From NCBI RefSeq assembly GCF_023277115.1, contig NZ_JALQCS010000001.1:2536001-2600000 (forward strand): 64,000 bases of DNA, read 5' to 3'. Of the stretch, positions 26,200 to 38,658 are shown one piece after another. The DNA comes from Acidithiobacillus acidisediminis. GTDB lineage: Bacteria; Pseudomonadota; Gammaproteobacteria; Acidithiobacillales; Acidithiobacillaceae. How positions within the stretch are numbered: the stretch's first letter is position 1; each line of letters opens with the position of its first letter. A model generated the notes under the pieces. It was given only the letters and a program-made list of their open reading frames with translations. It ran no database searches and had not been told where the DNA came from. The position numbers were made by a program, and so were the translations under genes.

Positions 26200-26619
26200 A
26201 TGGGCGTCGACGAAGTAGACAAAAACATTCGCATCCTCATCGTAGATGACTTCTCCACCATGCGGCGGATCGTTCGCAACCTGCTGCGCGAGATCGGATT
26301 CGGTAACTTCGATGAGGCAGAGGATGGCGTTCAAGCGCTACAGAAGTTGCAGGGTAGCCCCTTCGACTTTGTCGTATCCGATTGGAACATGCCCAACATG
26401 CAAGGAATCGATCTCCTGCGCGCAATCCGCGCCGACGCGCAGCTGCGCCACATTCCCGTGCTCATGGTCACTGCCGAAGCGAAGCGCGAAAACATCCTCG
26501 AGGCCGCCCAAGCCGGGGTAAATGGTTACATCGTCAAGCCTTTCACCGCCGAAACCTTGCGCGAAAAACTCGACGCGATCTTCAAGCGCTTGCAGGCGGC
26601 ACAGGGGGCGAACCGATGA
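26200..26619 (+). CDS. cheY: Chemotaxis response regulator CheY
   Basis: A single-domain receiver of 139 residues. The acidic pair is in [14 protein letters not shown], the phospho-acceptor is D61 ([10 protein letters not shown]), and Thr and Lys are in [10 protein letters not shown] and [22 protein letters not shown] is the CheY signature. When phosphorylated by CheA it binds the motor switch. It overlaps cheZ by 4 bp. Confidence 0.96.
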
Positions 26620-27089
26620 ACGGAGCGGCGCCGGAACATTCCCTCAACGAAATCGAGCTCCTCCTGCGCGAGGGCTTACGGCGAATCGCCAGTACTGCGG
26701 AAGAGGATCTGGTCGGTGCAAAAGATCCCCTGGAAGAAGCCTTGCGCCTGACGGAAGAACAAACCATGGCGACACTGGCGGCGGTTGAAGTCGCGCAAGG
26801 GGCCCTGAGTGACATTCGTAGTGCCCATCACACCTTCATTGATCCAGAACTTGCACAGATCGAGCAGGCCCTGCAACGCATTGTGGCCAGCCAACAAGGT
26901 CAAGATCTTGCCGGTCAGCGGCTGAAGAAGGCCATCACCCTGCTCCGCGCCGTCGAGAATCGCATCCGTCAGACCCTCACCGAGATGGGATTGGAGCGCC
27001 AGCCCTCCGATATCGAAGAGAATGGCATGAGCAATCCTGATATCGATCAGGACGGGGTCGATGCACTGCTCGCAGAGCTGGGGATCTGA
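26616..27089 (+). CDS. cheZ: CheY-P phosphatase CheZ
   Basis: A 157-residue CheZ starting at ATG 26616 inside the cheY stop; the longer upstream frame overlaps cheY and is rejected. The active-site segment [12 protein letters not shown] provides Asp 97 and Gln 101, the equivalents of E. coli D143 and Q147. The C-terminal CheY-docking helix is [14 protein letters not shown]. It is shorter than E. coli CheZ (214), with a trimmed four-helix bundle. Confidence 0.92.
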
Positions 27090-27091
27090 GC

Positions 27092-29092
27092 ATGGATATG
27101 GACATTCTCCAGGACTATCTCGCCGAGGCGCGGGAGCTGCTCGAGAAGGCGCAAGCGGAAATTCTGTGCCTGGAGGATCGGCCCGACGACGACGAGCTGC
27201 TGGCCAGCCTGTTTCGCGCCTTTCATACGCTGAAGGGTGGGGCCGGCTTTCTCGAGGCACAAAACCTCGTCGACTGGACTCATCATCTGGAAGATCTCCT
27301 CGACAAGCTGCGCAGTCACCAGTTGCGCGCCAACGGCGACATGGTCGATGCGATCCTGCGCGGACTCGACGTCATCGATGGCATGCTGCAGCAGCTGGCA
27401 CAAGGGGCATACCCTGCGCCCGGTCCGGAGGACCTTGGCGCGCGGATTCAGGCACTGGCCAGCGGTTGCGTGCCCGAGCCCGCTACCTCGGCATCGCCAT
27501 CCGACCAGGCGGCAGCAACGAGCGAATCCTCCGGAACCGTCTACGCTGAGCAGCGCGCGGATGCACAGGGGAATCCGGGGATCTTCGTCGCCCAATGCCC
27601 GGAGCCGAGCGACATAACACCGGACGCTGCCGCAGATGAGATATCCGAAGCGGAGTTCGAGAGCGTCCTCGATCAACTGTACGGCAGCCGGGCACCGGGC
27701 CTGGACCAGGCGGCGCCGGCAGCAGACGAGATATCCGAAAACGAGTTCGAGAACCTGCTGGATCAGATGTACGGCGATCACAGTGCGCCAGGCCTATCCA
27801 CCGCGGCGCCCGCCGTCGAAAAGCCGGCACCAGATTCCGGGCCACAGGCTCCGGCTCCGGCAACGCCAGCGCCAGTACCAGCCAAGTCCCCCGCGCCGCG
27901 GAGTATCGGTAGCAGCGAGGTGGAGAATACCCTGCGCGTCGATGCGGCGCGCCTTGATGCGGTGATGAACCAGGTTGGCGAACTGGTACTGCTGCGCAAC
28001 CGTCTCAGTTCAGCCATCGGCAGCTTGCTCGAAGAAAATGAGGATCTTGGTCGCATTGCCCGGGAAATGGACCTTAGCGTCAATGACCTGCAGGTCAATG
28101 CCATGCGGCTGCGCATGCAGCCCTGCAAACGCATCTTCCAGCAGTTACCGCGGGTAGTACGCGACGCGTCGCGGCAGCTGGGCAAAAATGTCCAACTCGA
28201 GATCCAGGGGGAAGATGTCGAGATCGACAAGGCCGTCGTCGATGCCCTCTCTGGTCCGATGACCCATCTCATCCGTAACAGTCTCGATCACGGGATTGAG
28301 CTGCCTGAGCAACGACGCACGGCACAAAAACCGGAAACGGCGCGGATTCGCGTGGCCGCCATTCACCTCGGCGACAAGGTACGCATTGAAGTCAGCGACG
28401 ATGGCCGCGGGATCGATCGCCAGATGGTGGTGCAGAAGGCCATCGAAAAAGGGGTGATCAGCGCCGAGCAGGCGGCACGACTTTCGGAGCAGGAAGCGCT
28501 GGAACTGATCTTCCGGCCCGGCTTTTCCACCAAGGAAGAGGCGACGGAACTCTCCGGGCGCGGTGTTGGCATGGATGTGGTGAAAGAGACCGTGCACAAG
28601 TTGCGTGGACGCCTGGACATCCGTACCAGCCTGGGCGCCGGCACCACCATTGCGATGGAATTTCCCCTGACCCTCGCCATTCTGCCGGTCCTCTATCTGC
28701 GCTTGCGCAGAGAGACCTACGCCCTGCCGGTGAACGCCATCGAAAGCCTGATTGATGTCCAGGACTCCCGCATCCATCGCATGCGCGGACGCAGTCTGTA
28801 CCGGCTGGACGAAGGCGAGGTCCGACCGATGATCGATCTCGGGGAACTGCTACACGGCCGTAAGCTACGGCTCGGCTCCGAACCGATTGAAGGCATTCTT
28901 ACCGAGCAGGCCCTGCTCCTCGTCTCCGAAGTGCTCGGCAATGAAGACTCCGTAGTCAAACCGCTGGATTTTTTGGCCAACGAGAACTGGTATCAGGGTG
29001 CCACGATTTCCGGGCGCGGCAACGTGGTGTTGATTCTGGATGCCGCAGCTCTGGGACGGCAGGGCATTGAATCAGGGGAGGCGAGTCGATGA
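27092..29092 (+). CDS. cheA: Chemotaxis histidine kinase CheA
   Basis: Kinase of 666 residues. P1/HPt domain (1-105) with phospho-His H45 in FRAFHTLKGGAGF. In place of a clear P2 domain there is a low-complexity linker (about 110-280) with two copies of ADEIS-x-x-EFE-x-x-LDQ-x-YG (181-198, 211-228). Dimerisation P3 (about 285-345), ATPase P4 (about 350-530, HLIRNSLDHGIELPEQRR, DDGRGID, GRGVGMDVV) and CheW-like P5 (about 530-660) follow. All kinase boxes look intact. No separate cheW is seen in the window; CheV supplies a CheW domain. Confidence 0.95.
   Translation: MDMDILQDYLAEARELLEKAQAEILCLEDRPDDDELLASLFRAFHTLKGGAGFLEAQNLVDWTHHLEDLLDKLRSHQLRANGDMVDAILRGLDVIDGMLQQLAQGAYPAPGPEDLGARIQALASGCVPEPATSASPSDQAAATSESSGTVYAEQRADAQGNPGIFVAQCPEPSDITPDAAADEISEAEFESVLDQLYGSRAPGLDQAAPAADEISENEFENLLDQMYGDHSAPGLSTAAPAVEKPAPDSGPQAPAPATPAPVPAKSPAPRSIGSSEVENTLRVDAARLDAVMNQVGELVLLRNRLSSAIGSLLEENEDLGRIAREMDLSVNDLQVNAMRLRMQPCKRIFQQLPRVVRDASRQLGKNVQLEIQGEDVEIDKAVVDALSGPMTHLIRNSLDHGIELPEQRRTAQKPETARIRVAAIHLGDKVRIEVSDDGRGIDRQMVVQKAIEKGVISAEQAARLSEQEALELIFRPGFSTKEEATELSGRGVGMDVVKETVHKLRGRLDIRTSLGAGTTIAMEFPLTLAILPVLYLRLRRETYALPVNAIESLIDVQDSRIHRMRGRSLYRLDEGEVRPMIDLGELLHGRKLRLGSEPIEGILTEQALLLVSEVLGNEDSVVKPLDFLANENWYQGATISGRGNVVLILDAAALGRQGIESGEASR
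27632..27775 (+). repeat. Two 30-codon repeats encoding docking-like peptides in CheA
   Basis: Two units, 90 bp apart, encode ADEISEAEFESVLDQLYG (27632-27685) and ADEISENEFENLLDQMYG (27722-27775). The peptides resemble the CheY-binding C-terminus of CheZ encoded just upstream. See the separate finding. Confidence 0.8.
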
Positions 29093-29715
29093 GTACCGCA
29101 CGGCAAATCATGGAGGTTGTCGATGCCTCCTTTCGCGCGCGCCAGGATATCGATCGGGCCTTGCAGGAAATCGACCGACGCGCCCTCAACGCCATGGTGC
29201 TGGTGAAAAAGCATGGCAATGTCCTGGCGGGCTACGGAGTCGTCGCCCAGGCCTTCCGGGAACGTGCTGCAAACTTGCGCGAATCCGCCTCGCACCTGCA
29301 AGCCAATATCGCGCCGCTGATCGAAGCGCAGATGCGCATCCTGCAGCAGGAGCGCCTGATTCAAAACTACGATCAGATGATGCAAAGCCATGGCAGCACC
29401 CTGCATCAACAATGTCCCGGTTTTGCATCGACACGCCAGGCCTGGGTCAAGACCATCACCATCGAACAGGACAAGGCGCGCAGGATCCTGCGCCAATTGC
29501 TGGAAAAGGTGCGGGTACTGCAAGAGGGCGTCGAAGAACAGGAATATGTAGTGACCAGTGGCCGCATCGAAGCGGCCTTGGTGGAGGCGAGTGGGGCACC
29601 GCTCATGCGGGTGTCACGAGACATGGGTGAGGCGGTACAGATCGTGGCGCGGGCCATACGCGACTATCGTCAGCAACTGGAGCGGTTACAAGATGAAAGC
29701 AACGAAAGTCTTTGA
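29089..29715 (+). CDS. Unknown helical protein in the che operon
   Basis: A 208-residue soluble protein overlapping the cheA stop (ATGA) and the next start by 23 bp, so clearly part of the operon. It is almost entirely helical, with long heptad-like stretches rich in Arg, Gln, Glu and Leu (about 15-100 and 115-205). It has one cysteine (in QQCPGF), no membrane segment and no MCP hairpin tip signature. The helical layout could suit a scaffold for the chemoreceptor array or a partner of the neighbouring di-iron protein. I do not recognise the family. Confidence 0.85.
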   Translation: MSTARQIMEVVDASFRARQDIDRALQEIDRRALNAMVLVKKHGNVLAGYGVVAQAFRERAANLRESASHLQANIAPLIEAQMRILQQERLIQNYDQMMQSHGSTLHQQCPGFASTRQAWVKTITIEQDKARRILRQLLEKVRVLQEGVEEQEYVVTSGRIEAALVEASGAPLMRVSRDMGEAVQIVARAIRDYRQQLERLQDESNESL

Positions 29716-30448
29716 GGCCAAGGATCATCGCTGGTGGATACTCTATGACCAAGAGGAAAGCCGGGTCATTGACTCCAATGTCTATGTCATGGAATCGAAA
29801 GGTCAGTCTCTCCTGCTCGATCCGGGCGGATTCGAGATCTTTCCGCAAGTCTTTGCCGCACTCGTCGAGGCTGTGCGACCGGGCAGCATTCAGGCGGGCT
29901 TTGTCTCGCATCAGGACCCCGATATTGCCTCCAGCCTGCCTTTATGGCATGCCTGTAATGCCGACATGCAGTGGCATGTCCCCGCTCTGTGGGAGGGGTT
30001 CATTCGCCATTACGGGGCCTTGGAAGCGCCATTGCAAAAGATCCCTGACGAAGGTGGAGGCATCCTGGTTGGCGGGCGGCGTCTGGAATTCATCCCGGCG
30101 CATTATCTGCATTCCTCCGCCAATTTTCATGTCTATGACCCAGAGGCCAAGGTGCTGTTTTCTGGTGACGTCGGGGCGGCGCTCCTCCCCCCCGGACATG
30201 CGCCTTGGGTGGATCGGCGTGATCCCGATGGCAAATCCTTCGCCGCCCATATCGAAAAGGCGCGCTATTTCCATCAGCGCTGGATGCCGTCCAACCGCGC
30301 CAAAACTGACTGGCTGGAACGCGTGAGCCAACTCGAAATCGATTTTCTCTGTCCCCAACATGGCGCCATTTATAGCGGTCCGCAGGTACAGCGCTTTTTC
30401 GACTGGTTTGCTGCCCTCCCCGTTGGCAGCGCTCTGACCAATGGATGA
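29693..30448 (+). CDS. ODP/flavodiiron-like metallo-beta-lactamase-fold protein
   Basis: A 251-residue protein from ATG 29693. It has the oxygen-binding di-iron/flavodiiron fold: SHQDPD (H73, D75, D77), [11 protein letters not shown] (H140), [11 protein letters not shown] (D159) and CPQHGAIY (H223). These align with five of the six ligands of flavodiiron proteins; the final His of the HxExDH motif is Ile here. There is no flavodoxin domain. An analogous protein (ODP) senses oxygen with a CheA-coupled receptor in Treponema denticola. Lying between cheA and two soluble receptors, it is probably an oxygen or NO sensor for chemotaxis rather than a hydrolase. Inferred from motifs and context. Confidence 0.8.
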
Positions 30449-31709
30449 ATCTATGCAGCTTCAGGACCTGAAAAACTACGCCCAGGCACTGCTCGAGCCG
30501 CTTTCCACCCTGGAGATGCTCTGTGCGGCCGATCCAGCGATGGAAAACCGGATCTTTTATATGAACGAGAGCGCACGGCAGGTGATGGATCAGTATGCCC
30601 AACGGCTGCAACCGCTGCTGCGGGGAGCCGATACCCGCACTGCCCTGGGGCAGTCGATTCATCAATTTCATCGGGATCCGGAACGAGTGCGGGGGATATT
30701 CCGCAAACTCGCTGATGGAAGCCTGCGTGAACATCACAATGTACTGGATTTGGGAGACATCCGCTTCATTCTGCGCTTCAGCGTGGTGCGGGAAGAAAAT
30801 GGGAGTCCCATCGCCTTTCATGCTTCGTGGTCAGACCACAGCAGTGAACGCAAGAATCGCCAGGTTCTCGCAGACATCGCCGCCAATGCCATCGACAGCG
30901 CAGTGACCATTGGCGAACTCAGCAAGGACGCCGAGCAGGCCATGGGCAGCACCAGTCGTAACCTGGACTTACTGCGCACGAGCATTGCCAGCAACCAGGA
31001 GAAGGTTTCGGCCCTGGTCAACCAGATCGGTGGCATCGGCAGAATCGCCCAAACCATTCGCGAGATTGCCTACCAAACCAATCTTCTTGCCTTGAATGCC
31101 GCCATTGAAGCGGCGCGCGCCGGGGAGCATGGACGCGGTTTTGCCGTCGTCGCCGACGAGGTGCGCAATCTCTCGCGCCGCGTCCAGGAAGCGACCGAAG
31201 AAGTCCAGGAAAACCTGGGCACGATCGCAGAGTCGGCGCGATCGCTCGGCGAGGTGGCGCGGCAAAATCAGGCGCAGGCCGGCGATGCCAAGGCCGTGAC
31301 CGAGCACCTACAGAAGCAGGTGGAGAAACTCCGCTGGCTAGCTGCCGCAGCCAGCATCGATGCGGCACGGCAAAGCCATCAGGATCGCTTTCAGCAAGTG
31401 GCCGATGAAATCCAACTGGGCACCCATCACCTGCAAGCCACTGACCTTGCGAATGAGCATAGCTGTTCCCTGGGACGCTGGATGGAGCGCATGGGCGACG
31501 CCCTGCTGCGGAACCAGCCGGAATATGAGGCGATTCGCAGCCCACACCACAGGTTCCATGAAAGTTTGCGTGCAGCCCTGGAAGCGAGAGCAGCGGGCCA
31601 GCTGGATACGGCGCAGCAGCTCATTGACCGAGCCCGCCCGGCCCGCGACGAAACCCTGCAACATCTGCAACGGCTGAGCAGCGAACTGCATCAGCGGATC
31701 AAGGAGTAG
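30441..31709 (+). CDS. Cytoplasmic chemoreceptor, PAS-MCP-CZB
   Basis: A soluble receptor of 422 residues with no membrane segment. The N-terminus (about 15-135) looks PAS-like ([31 protein letters not shown]). The signalling hairpin tip is [20 protein letters not shown] followed by [13 protein letters not shown] (about 208-245). The C-terminal CZB domain (about 300-385) keeps the 3His/Cys zinc set: H313, C342 (HSCSLGRWM), H370 and H373. CZB domains sense zinc or oxidants such as hypochlorite. It overlaps the ODP-like gene by 8 bp, which suggests paired function. Confidence 0.9.
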
Positions 31710-31712
31710 GAA

Positions 31713-32675
31713 ATGGACAGTATCTTGCGCGAAGTCGATGAACGTGCCCAACTCGCCGGGACCAACAAGTTTGAGCTACTCGTCTTTCGCCTCGGTGCCG
31801 ATGCTGCGCTCGGGAGCCAGGAACTTTTCGGCATCAATGTCTTCAAGGTGCGTGAGGCCCTGGTCATGCCGAAAATTACCCCCATGCCCGGGGCGCCAGA
31901 GCATGTCCTGGGCGTGGCCAATATCCGTGGACAAATCATTCCCGTCATCGATCTGCCGCAAGTGGTCGGCTGCCAGGCCAAGGGCCTGAACATTCTACTG
32001 GTCACCGAGTATGAACGCTCGGTGCAGGGCTTCGCTGTGGAGGACGTGGAAGAAATCGTCCGCCTCGACTGGAGCCACGTGCTCTCGGCCGAGGGCGCTG
32101 CAGTTGGCGGCCTAGTCACCAGCCTTGCGCGCTTGGATGAGGATATTGAAAAGGCGCGTCTGGCGCTGGTGCTCGATGTCGAACACATCCTGCGCAAGGT
32201 CCTGCCCTCGCGCTTCAAATCGGGGGATGAGCTCAACCAGCATCATGCCGTGGACATCCCCGCGGGGTCGGTGATTCTCTACGCCGACGACTCCGCCGTG
32301 GCACGCAACCAAATCGAAAAGACCCTGCGCAGCCTGGGCCTGCCCTTCATCAGCACCAAAACGGGCAAGGAGGCCTGGGAGCGCCTGCAACAGTTGGCCA
32401 AGGATGCGCGCGCCGAGGGACGCGCCGTTACCGACAAGGTAGCCCTTGTCCTGACCGATCTAGAAATGCCGGAAATGGATGGGTTTACCCTGACCCGCCG
32501 CATCAAGGAAACCGAAAACCTGCGCTCCGTGCCGGTGGTCATCCACTCCTCGCTCTCCGGTAGCGCCAACGAGGCCCACGCCCGCAGCGTTGGCGCCGAT
32601 GGCTACGTGGCCAAATTCCTCCCCGATGACCTGGCGCGATCGGTCGAAAGCGTCATCCACCGCGACGCCAAATGA
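31713..32675 (+). CDS. cheV: CheV coupling protein with receiver domain
   Basis: A 320-residue CheW-REC fusion. The CheW-like domain (about 18-165) has FGINVFKVREALVMP and VLGVANIRGQIIPVIDL. The receiver (about 185-318) has acidic pocket ILYADDS, phospho-acceptor D249 (VLTDLEMPEMDG) and VVIHSSLSG. It couples receptors to CheA and can act as a phosphate-dependent adaptor. It lies between the two soluble receptors and 3 bp after the first one. Confidence 0.95.
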   Translation: MDSILREVDERAQLAGTNKFELLVFRLGADAALGSQELFGINVFKVREALVMPKITPMPGAPEHVLGVANIRGQIIPVIDLPQVVGCQAKGLNILLVTEYERSVQGFAVEDVEEIVRLDWSHVLSAEGAAVGGLVTSLARLDEDIEKARLALVLDVEHILRKVLPSRFKSGDELNQHHAVDIPAGSVILYADDSAVARNQIEKTLRSLGLPFISTKTGKEAWERLQQLAKDARAEGRAVTDKVALVLTDLEMPEMDGFTLTRRIKETENLRSVPVVIHSSLSGSANEAHARSVGADGYVAKFLPDDLARSVESVIHRDAK

Positions 32676-32684
32676 GGTAAGAAC

Positions 32685-34037
32685 ATGCCAAGCACCCCAG
32701 ATTCTCTCAGCTCCCTCCTCAGCGCTTGCCTCGACGGTGACGCGGATACCGCTCGCCTACTGCGCGAGGACGAAGAATTTCAAAGCTCTATCGCCCCCAT
32801 TTGCCAACAGCAGCGAGATCAGTTGCGCCGGTATTGTTCCGTGTTGGACCAGCAAATCCGGGCATTGCAGGATGCCAACGACAGTCATCTGCTGGAACTG
32901 GAGTTTCGTGCCAGCTTGCAACGGGCAGAGCTCGATAGCCAGTCCCTGGTTGATCAGGCGCAGGCCGTCATCCGTGCCGTCAAGGACTCGGCCGTAGCGG
33001 TCGCCGCCAATCAGGATCTCGCCTCACACACCTTGCATGATGTTCAACTGGGTAACCAACGTCTCTCCGAACTCATCGGCGAGATGGATCTGGTCGAACA
33101 GGCCGTGAATGGTATGGGGAAAACGGTACAGGCCTTTCTCGAACAGACCCGCACCATCACTACACTGGCGGTGAAAGTGCAGGAAATCGCCAAACAAACC
33201 AACCTGCTCGCCCTGAATGCCGCCATCGAAGCGGCTCGTGCCGGAGAACATGGACGGGGTTTTGCCGTCGTCGCAGATGAAGTCAAAAAGCTGGCGCAAA
33301 GCTCTTCTCATGCCGCCAGCGAAATCCGCAGTGCCGCCAGCAATATCAATGAAGGCGCAGCAGAAGTGGAAAACCGGGTATCGGCCAGCATTCAACACCT
33401 CCGTCGCGGCGGGGACTCCCTGGAAACGGTGGCCGAGGTCCTTGGCATGGCGAACCACTCTGCGCAGGAGACCCAGGAAAACATCAAAAACATCATCGAC
33501 GGCAGTGCCCAGGAGATTGCTGCGGCGGAGGCCATGGGGGCGCACATGGAAACCCTGCGCGGGTCCATGCAAAAATTTGACGGCAGCTTTAGTGAGATTG
33601 GCAACTGCCTCGGAAACATACAGAAAAATCTGGAGCAGGCCGCAGAAGAGGCCATGAATGGGCCTGTTGTCCCTCTTGCCGTGCGTCTCAGCATTGCGAA
33701 AAGCGAGCATGTGCGCTGGGTCGGAAAGATACTGGAAGCCATCCGCAGCGGCAACACCAGTCTGGGCACAGAGGAGCTGAAAGACGAGCACGCCTGTCGC
33801 CTGGGACTCTGGATGGATGCCTTGAGCGAGTCTGCCTTGACCCAAAGCACGGAATTCGCGTCCTTGCAGCAGGTCCATCCGCAGGTGCACAAACTTGGCT
33901 TGCGTCTGCTACAGTCAGTGCGCGAGCACGACAGGACGGCAATTCACAAAGGCGCCGAACAGCTAAAAAGTCTCAGTACGCTGGTGCAGACGCAACTCGA
34001 CAAACTGCGTGACAAGATCCTCAGCGCGGGGGATTGA
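32685..34037 (+). CDS. Cytoplasmic chemoreceptor, MCP-CZB
   Basis: A soluble receptor of 450 residues. The N-terminal about 90 residues are helical without a recognisable sensor domain. The MCP core (about 95-330) has tip [20 protein letters not shown] and [14 protein letters not shown]. The C-terminal CZB domain (about 335-415) has H342 (SEHVRW), C371 (HACRLGLWM), H398 and H402. No membrane segments. The CZB may be the only sensor, reading zinc or oxidant level in the cytoplasm. Second soluble receptor of the operon. Confidence 0.92.
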
Positions 34038-36184: not shown

Positions 36185-36204
36185 GCGCAACTCTGTTGCA
36201 ATGT
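36180..36204. promoter_or_regulatory. Palindromic operator candidate over the -10 and start of transcription
   Basis: Outer arms ACATTGC / GCAATGT are perfect over 7 bp within a 25-bp stretch (36180-36204), and GCAAC-TCT-GTTGC nests inside. The repeat covers the -10 box and the transcription start, the normal place for a Fur/Zur/MntR-class repressor. The sequence does not let me choose which one. Confidence 0.5.
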
Positions 36205-36213
36205 GTCGACGCC

Positions 36214-37026
36214 ATGTCCACTCCCTCAGCCACATCCGATCCGCTTTTGGCAGTGTCCGCTCTTGAGGTGCGCCTGGGCGGGCGACAGGTCCTGCAGGAC
36301 ATCTCCTTTTCCCTGCAAGCCGGGACGGTTGCGGCCCTGATTGGCGAAAACGGTGCTGGCAAGACTACCCTCCTGCGCAGCATCCTGGGCATGCAAAGCT
36401 GGCACCAAGGCAGCATTCGGGTCCTCGGCCAGCCAGTGCAGGAACAGCTCGGCGCCCTGGGCTATGTGCCGCAGAAGATCAGCTTTGACCCTTATCTCCC
36501 TCTGCGAACCCGGGATCTGGTGGCCTTGGGGCGTATGCCGCGGCGCTGGTGGCAGCGCCCCGATGCCCGCATCCTCCGCGACGCCCTCGCTGCCGTGCAG
36601 GCCGAGTCTTTTGCCGAACAACGGGTGGGCATGCTCTCGGGCGGGCAGCAGCAGCGTGCCGTCATCGCCCACGCTCTCGCCCGCCAACCCCGCCTCTTGC
36701 TCCTGGACGAGCCTCTGGCCAACCTGGACTTTGCCAGCGCCAGTCGTCTGGTGCAGCTGCTGGGGAGCCTCGCCCACCAGCAGGGCATTAGCGTGCTGGT
36801 CACCGCCCATGACATGAACCCGCTCCTGCCCGTGTTGGACCAGCTGATCTACCTGGTGGGTGGACGCGCTGCCGCCGGTACCGTGGACGAGGTGGTGCGC
36901 AGCGATGTGCTGAACCGCCTTTATGGCTACCCGGTAGAGGTCCTCCAACACCGCGGACGCCTGCTGGTCCTGCCCGAAGATCCTCGTCAGGGTCTTGAAA
37001 TCCCCTGCCACGTGCATCATGACTGA
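36214..37026 (+). CDS. ABC transporter ATPase, zinc/manganese family
   Basis: A 270-residue ATPase of the ZnuC/MntB-like family, started at ATG 36214 rather than the TTG at 36196, which lies at the predicted start of transcription. Walker A GENGAGKTT, signature LSGGQQQR, Walker B LLLLDEPLANLD, and switch His in LVTAHDMNPLL are all intact. YVPQKISFDPYLPLRTRDLV is typical of metal importers. It overlaps the first permease by 8 bp. Confidence 0.88.
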   Translation: MSTPSATSDPLLAVSALEVRLGGRQVLQDISFSLQAGTVAALIGENGAGKTTLLRSILGMQSWHQGSIRVLGQPVQEQLGALGYVPQKISFDPYLPLRTRDLVALGRMPRRWWQRPDARILRDALAAVQAESFAEQRVGMLSGGQQQRAVIAHALARQPRLLLLDEPLANLDFASASRLVQLLGSLAHQQGISVLVTAHDMNPLLPVLDQLIYLVGGRAAAGTVDEVVRSDVLNRLYGYPVEVLQHRGRLLVLPEDPRQGLEIPCHVHHD

Positions 37027-37879
37027 TCCTCTGCATCTGGCCAGCTTTTTTCAGAACTCCGCCGTGCAGACCGCGCTCTGGATTGGCGCGTTGGCAGCGA
37101 TCCTCAATGGGACAATAGGGGTCTTTACCGTGCTGCGGCAGCACAGCTTTGCCGGCCATGCCCTGGGGGACGGCAGCAGCGCCGGGGGTTCCCTGGCAAT
37201 CTTTGCTGGCATCAGCGCCTTGTGGGGATTTTTGGCGATGGCGTGGCTGGCGGCGTTGGCCATGGCGGCCCTGGGCTTGCGTCGGGCGCAGGAGCGCGAC
37301 CTCGCCACCGGCATCGTCCTGGGGGCCACCTTGGGTTTGTCAGCGCTACTTCTGTACTTTGATGTCACCCTGACCCGGGCCAGCAGCGCCACGGTAGACG
37401 TGATGTTTGGGTCGATCTTCGCCCTGGCACCCCAGTTGTTTTGGCCCATTGTGGCCCTGGTGGGGGTAGCCATCGGTTTGGTCCTGATCCTATACCGGCC
37501 GCTGCTCCTCATTGCTGCCGATCCGGACCTGGGCCGCGCTGCGGGCCTGCCGGTACGGCGCCTGGAAATCCTGTATCTGCTCCTGCTCGGCACGGCGGCG
37601 GCCTTGTCCGCTCTCTCCATCGGAGTGATCCTTGCCACTGCGCTCCTGCTTGGGCCAGCGGCCAGTGGCCTGCGTCTGGCGCGCAAACCGTGGCAGAGTT
37701 TTTTCTACGCCCAGGCCATCGCCCTGCTTGCCGTCTTTGGCGGCATTTACCTCGCCTACAGTAGCTACTACTGGTCCGGCGGCGCCAGTTGGCCGGTGAG
37801 CTTTTTTGTGGTCCTGCTCATCCTGCTGTGTTATTTAGCGACGGCAGCCTGGGGTCCAGCACGGGGCCTGCAACGCTGA
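37019..37879 (+). CDS. Metal ABC transporter permease 1
   Basis: An inner-membrane permease of the ABC-3 (ZnuB/MntC) family, 286 residues with about 8-9 membrane segments. Conserved family features include VFTVLRQHSFAGHALGDGSSAGG near the N-terminus and the GVILATALLLGPAASGLRLA segment. It overlaps the ATPase gene and, by one base, the second permease gene, so this is a tightly coupled three-gene unit. No substrate-binding protein gene is in the window. Confidence 0.88.
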   Translation: MTDPLHLASFFQNSAVQTALWIGALAAILNGTIGVFTVLRQHSFAGHALGDGSSAGGSLAIFAGISALWGFLAMAWLAALAMAALGLRRAQERDLATGIVLGATLGLSALLLYFDVTLTRASSATVDVMFGSIFALAPQLFWPIVALVGVAIGLVLILYRPLLLIAADPDLGRAAGLPVRRLEILYLLLLGTAAALSALSIGVILATALLLGPAASGLRLARKPWQSFFYAQAIALLAVFGGIYLAYSSYYWSGGASWPVSFFVVLLILLCYLATAAWGPARGLQR

Positions 37880-38658
37880 TGTTTTCCAGTTATCTCCTGC
37901 ATACCTGGATTGCGGCTACCTTGCTCGCCATTGCAGCGGGTAGCCTGGGGTATTTCGTGGTCCTGCGGCGCAGCGCCTTCGCCGCCCACGCCCTGCCCTT
38001 GGCGGCCTTCCCCGGCGGGGCCCTGGCGACGCTGCTGGGCTTCGCACCCCTCTGGGGCCTGGCAGGATTTGCCCTCCTCGGGGTGGCCTTTCTCCGTTTT
38101 TTCACCCGCCTCGGCCGGCGCGATGTCGCGATCGGCCTGTTGTTGAGCAGTTTTCTTGCCCTCGGCGGGCTGTTTCTGAGCCTGGGGCGCGAATACGCTG
38201 CCCGCGTTTACGGTCTGCTCTTTGGCGAGGTCGTGGGCATATCGGCAGCCAGCCTCCTGCCCTTGGGGCTACTGAGCCTGACGGTTATCCTGCTGTTGCT
38301 CTGGCGCTTTCCCGATCTGCTGCTGCAATCCAGCCAGAGCGAACTGGCCATGGCGCGGGCCATCTCACCCATCCGCATGGAGTGGTTTTTCCTCATCTTG
38401 CTGGCCCTGGTGAGCGCCGCTGCGGTGCCCGTGGTCGGCACCCTGTTGGTCTTCACCCTCCTGGTCAGCCCCGCCGCCGCGGCCCAACGGCTGTCCGCCC
38501 ATCCCTACCGCGCCTGGCTGCTGGCAATCCTCCTGGCGGAGCTCCTCAGCTGGTCTTCGATAGCCCTATCCTATTGGTCCAACTGGCCCCTGAGCTTTTT
38601 TGTCGGTACCCAGGGCGCCCTGCTTTTTTTGCTCAGTCGCTTCCTGACGCGGCCCTGA
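37879..38658 (+). CDS. Metal ABC transporter permease 2
   Basis: A second ABC-3 family permease, 259 residues from ATG 37879 within the TGATG junction. It has YFVVLRRSAFAAHALPLAAFPGG and VVGTLLVFTLLVSPAAAAQRL, paralogous to the first permease. Two different permeases with one ATPase suggest a heterodimeric importer. Confidence 0.88.
   Translation: MFSSYLLHTWIAATLLAIAAGSLGYFVVLRRSAFAAHALPLAAFPGGALATLLGFAPLWGLAGFALLGVAFLRFFTRLGRRDVAIGLLLSSFLALGGLFLSLGREYAARVYGLLFGEVVGISAASLLPLGLLSLTVILLLLWRFPDLLLQSSQSELAMARAISPIRMEWFFLILLALVSAAAVPVVGTLLVFTLLVSPAAAAQRLSAHPYRAWLLAILLAELLSWSSIALSYWSNWPLSFFVGTQGALLFLLSRFLTRP

Follow-up and report, generated by a model that had tools for sequence, protein, structure and literature searches.

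A chemoreceptor-tip-like protein is the conserved neighbour of an oxygen-binding di-iron protein in the operon of a probable cytoplasmic chemotaxis system of Acidithiobacillus acidisediminis

The oxygen-binding di-iron protein (ODP) of Treponema denticola has a genetic link to a soluble receptor that lacks a sensor and can modulate the kinase CheA, according to the available part of PMC7666581. A TREND case study (PMC7319448, in the portion accessible) relates that the ODP survey of Muok 2019 met ODPs in operons alongside methyl-accepting chemotaxis protein (MCP) genes, in either of two orders, or alongside other genes for signalling, and also as fusions with signalling domains. The accessible text of PMC4692393, which cites Berleman & Bauer 2005 and Wuichet & Zhulin 2010, mentions natural MCP-like proteins of the single-chain type and gives their function as unknown. 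Here, we describe a chemotaxis (che) operon of the sulfur oxidiser Acidithiobacillus acidisediminis that lies in a window of 64,000 nucleotides (contig NZ_JALQCS010000001.1, positions 2,536,001 to 2,600,000 of the forward strand), "the window" denoting the whole stretch of DNA that was analysed. The operon encodes a 208-residue protein, p208, between cheA and the gene of a 251-residue ODP. The conserved partner of ODP is the p208 family, rather than the receptors with CZB domains that are also encoded in the operon, and p208 probably mimics, in a single natural chain, a receptor-dimer tip, and its predicted contacts would link ODP to CheA.

The initial annotation of this DNA was confined to positions 29693-34037, a range that leaves out p208 (29089-29715). 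Of 96 loci ranked by similarity of their ODP, the best 80 (46-89% identity) served for comparison, and in 79 of these best 80 a member of the p208 family is found directly upstream of ODP. The p208-odp pair is present in all 36 loci of 64-89% ODP identity, with cheA seen in 34 and cheV in 30; the two loci of the 36 that lack a cheA match, L008 and L028, begin shortly before or inside p208. The combination of genes is thus not unique to this operon. In Methylobacter (L041) and Methyloglobulus (L084) the pair is preceded by CheB, in two metagenome-assembled genomes (MAGs; L043 and L061) by a receiver-SpoIIE protein, and in Methylomonas (L050) by QueC. Among 29 genomes of the window's family, p208 is present in 23, CheA in exactly those 23, and some ODP in 28. 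All 26 p208 matches in these genomes have an ODP match 56-81 bp downstream, and CheA precedes 24 of the 26 on the same contig.

Two profiles represent the family. Profile A1, for the window's branch, contains 32 rows, comprising the window and 31 of the 36 loci (L009, L011, L013, L028 and L034 were left out). Profile A4, for the gammaproteobacterial branch, contains 34 of 40 upstream open reading frames (ORFs), leaving out L044, L047, L055, L065, L067 and L073; the L055 entry is a second ODP rather than a p208 family member, and no p208 was found upstream of that second ODP. A search of 369 genomes of the class with A4 gave matches at 1e-8 in 35 genomes. The search returned 38 rows, of which 8, all in frames of at least 526 residues, were left out. 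In the 30 loci fetched, all 22 short frames (210-321 residues) have ODP 18-119 bp downstream, and the 8 long frames (at least 416 residues) are all without ODP downstream. The p208 of the window itself was missed by A4 in the search at 1e-8 and scores 29.2 bits when scored directly. Recognisable A4 relatives stay with ODP; free relatives may exist outside the reach of A4.

Two further observations concern the distribution of these genes. The arrangement cheA-p208-odp is also found in L022, L025, L026 and L027, which are MAGs from bog and other sources that carry the label Acidobacteriaceae or Bryobacterales; either horizontal transfer or misbinning would account for this. In genomes of the window's family, a second ODP type is located away from che genes (L090:1414-2579 and L091:488-1641), each copy being followed by a protein of about 120 residues. 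This protein weakly resembles Roadblock/LC7 in L090 (7e-4, below the cut-off) and has no match at 0.01 in L091, where an ORF judged by eye to be HD-GYP-like lies nearby. ODPs may swap partners according to pathway.

Members of A1 share an invariant block that runs from D29-R30-A32-L33-N34-A35 to F56-R57 and a second block from about Y153 to L164. The Pfam MCPsignal family is touched, at E-values up to 0.5, by 29 of the 32 A1 members (best 9.9e-8, window copy 0.27) and by 31 of the 34 A4 members. When A1 was searched against 398 genomes of the phylum, 14 other loci were matched, of which 13 show an MCP tip; the exception is L107, which shows no tip motif. In the window's branch, the first half of p208 aligns with the MCP tip at 7.2e-5 (profile against MCP alignment), a score reached by none of 200 column shuffles and none of 200 heptad-keeping shuffles. 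In the gammaproteobacterial branch, both halves align with the MCP tip (1.4e-6 and 8.2e-7; 0 of 400 shuffles each), and the two halves align with one another (4e-5). The two branches align with each other by hhalign at 8.2e-6 over 172 columns, and A1 recovers 37 of the 40 upstream ORFs above the inclusion threshold, one of the 40 not being a family member. On these profile comparisons the branches constitute one family, which appears to be derived from MCPs. The best sequence match of A4 in the Protein Data Bank (PDB) is the soluble receptor 3g6b, at 5.4e-9. The top PDB matches of A1 were inositol trisphosphate receptors (0.0014), which were taken as chance helical matches; the MCP 3g6b stands at 0.42 in that search.

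AlphaFold models of the window p208 and of its L041 counterpart are all-helical, with mean pLDDT (predicted local distance difference test) values of 90.5 and 88.0, respectively. Both models match the same designed single-chain four-helix bundles over residues 1-208, with Z 17.0 and 2.2 A over 177 residues for the window protein and Z 17.9 and 1.8 A over 179 residues for L041. A Foldseek search with p208 gave no match at E <= 0.001. Helix breaks in the L041 model fall at residues 53-54, 107-112 and 167-169, so the two tip motifs would lie together at the same end of the bundle, as they do in MCP dimers.

Several observations weigh against p208 as a receptor-tip adaptor of ODP. In L076, the sole exception of the 80 loci, 736 bp are available before odp and no p208 match was found there. 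Of the 44 loci with less than 54% ODP identity, 16 show no match in the available DNA to any che-operon query except ODP. Relatives without ODP could be missed, because profile A4 was built from ODP neighbours. The window p208 scores 11.5 bits against MCPsignal and that of L041 16.9 bits, both below the gathering cut-off of 34.6, and for that reason p208 is not filed as an MCP. The second half of p208 alone, in the window's branch, aligns with the MCP tip at 0.023, a score reached in 5 of 200 and 19 of 200 shuffles and not clearly above chance. The structural match fixes the fold rather than the ancestry, for which it is weak evidence because four-helix bundles are common, and in the window model the helix is unbroken at the first tip. 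Finally, p208 lacks some acidic residues of the MCP tip in the profile alignment, and docking on CheA may therefore differ.

The protein of 251 residues qualifies as a strict ODP, since it scores above the cut-off of its family and resembles solved ODPs more than it does flavodiiron enzymes. It matches PF19583 at 1.7e-64 (217.7 bits, cut-off 27.2). Such a match alone is not specific, since PF19583 also matches in 12 of 14 control genomes, Escherichia coli included, and above the cut-off in 9. In a PDB comparison, the protein scores 183.6 and 152.2 bits against 6qrq and 6qnm, respectively, two structures that bear the name oxygen-binding di-iron protein, versus only 31.8 bits for the best flavodiiron enzyme. 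The residues H73, D75, D77, H140, D159 and H223, already listed in the initial annotation, are invariant in 24 aligned ODPs (of 81, the 80 loci and the window). The isoleucine that had been reported in place of the second histidine of the HxExDH motif is the rule among ODPs: at position 78, where flavodiiron enzymes have their sixth ligand, all 24 sequences carry I or V and the two solved ODPs carry V, so the replacement is a mark of the ODP family. By analogy with solved relatives, we infer a di-iron site and reversible O2 binding for the ODP of the window. In a Pfam scan, a flavodoxin domain was not detected in ODP, nor were redox-partner domains in the operon genes scanned.

The operon consists of the following genes, in the order cheY-cheZ-cheA-p208-odp-MCP1-cheV-MCP2.

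26200..26619, plus strand: cheY, response regulator (Response_reg, 2.3e-31).
26616..27089, plus strand: cheZ, phosphatase (PF04344 CheZ, 1.6e-8, 35.1 bits versus a cut-off of 30.7).
27092..29092, plus strand: cheA, kinase with Hpt, H-kinase_dim, HATPase_c and CheW-like domains, by domain matches; the single PF02895 match of the genome.
29089..29715, plus strand: p208, proposed ODP-CheA adaptor, an MCP-tip-like helical single chain of 208 residues, from profiles, models and gene neighbourhood.
29693..30448, plus strand: odp, ODP family, 251 residues (PF19583; H73, D75, D77, H140, D159, H223).
30441..31709, plus strand: MCP1, soluble receptor with an Aer2-like PAS domain (H77, W130; by profile), an MCP signalling domain and CZB (MCPsignal and CZB over cut-off).
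31713..32675, plus strand: cheV, CheW-like and receiver domains; the only CheW-domain protein found in its own genome besides CheA (PF01584).
32685..34037, plus strand: MCP2, soluble MCP-CZB receptor (MCPsignal 1.6e-30, CZB 2.1e-10; no membrane segment by hydropathy).

The genes p208 and odp overlap by 23 bp and odp and MCP1 by 8 bp, and a MotB-like gene and a SPOR-domain gene precede the operon. Scoring against the cheZ family covers the window and L009. The host genome is 2.81 Mb in 4 contigs, with an estimated completeness of 100%. The closest ODPs of named organisms among the best 80 of 96 loci are those of an Acidithiobacillus MAG (89% identity) and of Acidithiobacillus sp. YTS05 (88%).

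MCP1 and MCP2 both contain MCPsignal and CZB domains over the cut-off. The highest 19-residue Kyte-Doolittle averages are 1.19 for MCP1, 0.79 for MCP2 and 1.15 for MCP3, the third receptor of the genome, compared with 3.25 for a membrane-receptor control; all three receptors are soluble, without membrane segments. Both membrane-free receptors described in the initial annotation, one overlapping odp and the other following cheV, are thus borne out, and the location of the ODP gene between cheA and cheV is likewise as first described. The PAS assignment for the former receptor was not reproduced by Pfam in the window's MCP1. It was recovered with a nine-sequence profile of the MCP1 N-terminal domain, for which the closest solved structure is the Aer2 PAS domain 3vol (5.1e-12). 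H77, the equivalent of the Aer2 haem histidine H234, and W130 are kept in all nine aligned MCP1 PAS domains. We take W130 to be the counterpart of the Aer2 tryptophan W283. Because the PAS domain is closest to Aer2 and both residues are kept, MCP1 may hold a haem O2 sensor of its own. The CZB columns H313, C342, H369 and H373 (MCP1 numbering), a 3His-1Cys set, are nearly invariant across 13 receptors and are, from their motif, the predicted zinc ligands of the MCP1 CZB domain. An ABC ATPase and two ABC-3 permeases of the metal-transport type are encoded at 36196-38658 of the window, about 2 kb past MCP2, with possible relevance to zinc sensing by CZB.

Of the 30 related che-type loci that extend as far as cheV, 26 encode one or more receptor tips between odp and cheV, and L006, L012, L013 and L020 encode none. 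All four of the latter keep p208-odp, and L012 and L013 contain a PAS remnant with stops. The receptors of L007 (298 residues) and L014 (282 residues) are without the PAS part, and in MCP1 of L027 all four CZB zinc-ligand positions are replaced. A short-motif test for PAS misses other PAS kinds (e.g. that of L005), and no PAS counts were drawn from it for related operons.

The chemotaxis inventory of the genome is small. It comprises one CheA (a single PF02895 match) and three MCP signalling domains, all paired with CZB and all in proteins that are soluble by hydropathy. No stand-alone CheW was found in the genome, PF01584 matching only in CheA and CheV. No CheR was found over the cut-off, two matches of 25.3 and 20.1 bits falling below the threshold of 27. 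The one CheB match over the cut-off is partial (positions 121-174 of 174), and one of the two CheR-like matches is some 250 bp away. The inventory is limited by these thresholds, below which divergent homologues are possible. Judged by domain matches, the system seems to be cytoplasmic and to lack methylation enzymes, with CheV as the sole coupling protein found, and the self-contained intracellular system envisaged in the initial annotation agrees with it. The adjacent partial CheR-like and CheB matches (G000:C1:343312-343885) perhaps represent a decayed methylation gene. A fourth CZB domain over the cut-off ends a protein that resembles GGDEF-EAL by eye (L004:1345-3153; G000:C1 near 2775300), a possible zinc-linked cyclic-di-GMP enzyme.

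Taken together, the observed gene content, domain identities, ligand conservation, p208-odp linkage, relation of the p208 family to MCP tips and genome inventory incline us, with somewhat more confidence than doubt, to read the operon as an all-cytoplasmic oxygen/redox-taxis pathway in which ODP signals via p208 to CheA, with haem and zinc/oxidant inputs in addition. The di-iron site of ODP would bind O2 (and iron) in the cell and then change shape, as suggested by solved relatives. ODP would dock on p208, a four-helix protein presumably derived from the MCP signalling hairpin, and p208, as one chain imitating a receptor-dimer tip, would sit on CheA/CheV within the receptor array. The iron-oxygen state of ODP would set CheA activity and thereby the level of CheY-P, which would be removed by CheZ and act on the flagellar motor. 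MCP1 would provide a second O2 input via its Aer2-like haem PAS domain, and the CZB domains of MCP1, MCP2 and the third soluble receptor a zinc/oxidant input. In this scheme, we infer the p208-ODP contact, the p208-CheA contact and the direction of the response. The observations of the initial annotation are thus confirmed and its interpretation, an oxygen or oxidant taxis pathway, is partly supported.

A different route would have ODP signal directly via the CZB receptors, with the overlapping MCP1 or MCP2 as its cognate receptor, like TDE2496 for the Treponema ODP, and with p208 as a bystander or chaperone. The 8-bp overlap of odp and MCP1 and the receptor tips of the 26 related operons fit this route, as does the MCP homologue that serves as the cognate partner of T. 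denticola ODP in the available part of PMC7666581. However, L006, L012, L013 and L020 keep p208-odp without a receptor tip between odp and cheV, and some of the 79 loci in which the p208 family adjoins ODP are without a receptor match in the available DNA. MCP1 as an obligatory ODP partner was set aside on this gene loss, an ODP operon built on CZB receptors, as first proposed, does not agree with these loci, and we consider direct signalling via the receptors unlikely.

Less probable still is that ODP and p208 are no sensor and instead reduce O2 or scavenge iron or peroxide, as a unit that simply accompanies che genes. The flavodiiron lactamase-type fold of ODP would suit such a unit, and genomes of the window's family without CheA retain another ODP, beside a roadblock-like protein in L090; yet Pfam detects neither a flavodoxin domain in ODP nor a redox-partner domain in the scanned operon genes, p208 appears to descend from a receptor tip, and the p208 genomes are the CheA genomes among the 29. 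We give as little weight to a structural role of p208, which would fill or cap an array that lacks CheW and in which ODP would control array order rather than kinase activity. That role would accord with the lack of a detected stand-alone CheW in the genome and with the accessible account of T. denticola, in which ODP deletion makes array CheA more ordered (PMC7666581), but the p208 family adjoins ODP also in loci without other che matches in the available DNA.

Beyond this operon, and tentatively, with slightly less than even confidence, we propose that gammaproteobacterial and acidithiobacillal ODPs act via a dedicated, sensorless and so far unrecognised adaptor. As a natural pseudo-dimer of the chemoreceptor tip in a single chain, this adaptor would make a separate soluble O2-binding protein an input of the CheA array. 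This would be the first function for single-chain MCP-like proteins, and in A. acidisediminis the adaptor would feed an array for which no membrane receptor, stand-alone CheW or full methylation set was found in the genome. The main new point is the partner protein p208, the coupling of ODP to CheA being already known. The proposal names a concrete partner for ODP oxygen sensors, conserved across many genomes, and suggests a role for receptor-like proteins of the single-chain type, given as of unknown function in the accessible text of PMC4692393. It also offers a minimal cytoplasmic chemosensory system, with one CheA, CheV, no stand-alone CheW found and no CheR over the cut-off, for testing soluble-sensor control of CheA. 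No description of a p208 protein was found in the literature searched, which was mostly outside subscription journals and did not cover the ODP survey of Muok 2019; the novelty of the p208-ODP link is uncertain because that operon survey may include the p208 family. A paper on a putative aerotaxis cluster of Corallococcus was set aside as a precedent, as it concerns PAS and globin rather than ODP.

Among solved structures, 3g6b, of 213 residues, is the best PDB sequence match of A4 (5.4e-9). We take 3g6b and 3g67 to be the sensorless soluble receptor Tm14 of Thermotoga maritima, presumably one hairpin that dimerises, as compared with two tip-like segments in each chain of the p208 family. The MCP1 receptor resembles TlpD of Helicobacter pylori in its soluble PAS-MCP-CZB layout and its 3His-1Cys CZB site. 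According to the available part of PMC12871147, such sites in TlpD sense zinc and HOCl, and the TlpD PAS domain is without an obvious ligand pocket, unlike the Aer2-like PAS domain of MCP1 with its haem histidine. MCP1 also resembles Aer2 of Pseudomonas aeruginosa in PAS sequence and in the haem histidine and tryptophan at equivalent places. As given in the accessible text of PMC13401364, H234 of Aer2 is the haem-ligating histidine and the Aer2 PAS domain is flanked by HAMP domains, whereas MCP1 has a C-terminal CZB domain. Similar to the T. denticola system, as far as the available text of PMC7666581 describes it, the operon studied here combines an ODP family member, a link to CheA and a soluble receptor-like partner. 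It differs in that no stand-alone CheW was found in the genome, in that the operon adds CZB receptors, one of them with an Aer2-like PAS domain, and in that the partner is a single-chain MCP-tip-like protein of about 200 residues, below the Pfam cut-off for MCPs. With the natural single-chain MCP-like proteins of the accessible text of PMC4692393, there called single-chain versions of MCP signalling domains, the p208 family would share two MCP signalling tips in one soluble chain; unlike them, it is short, degenerate and tied to ODP.

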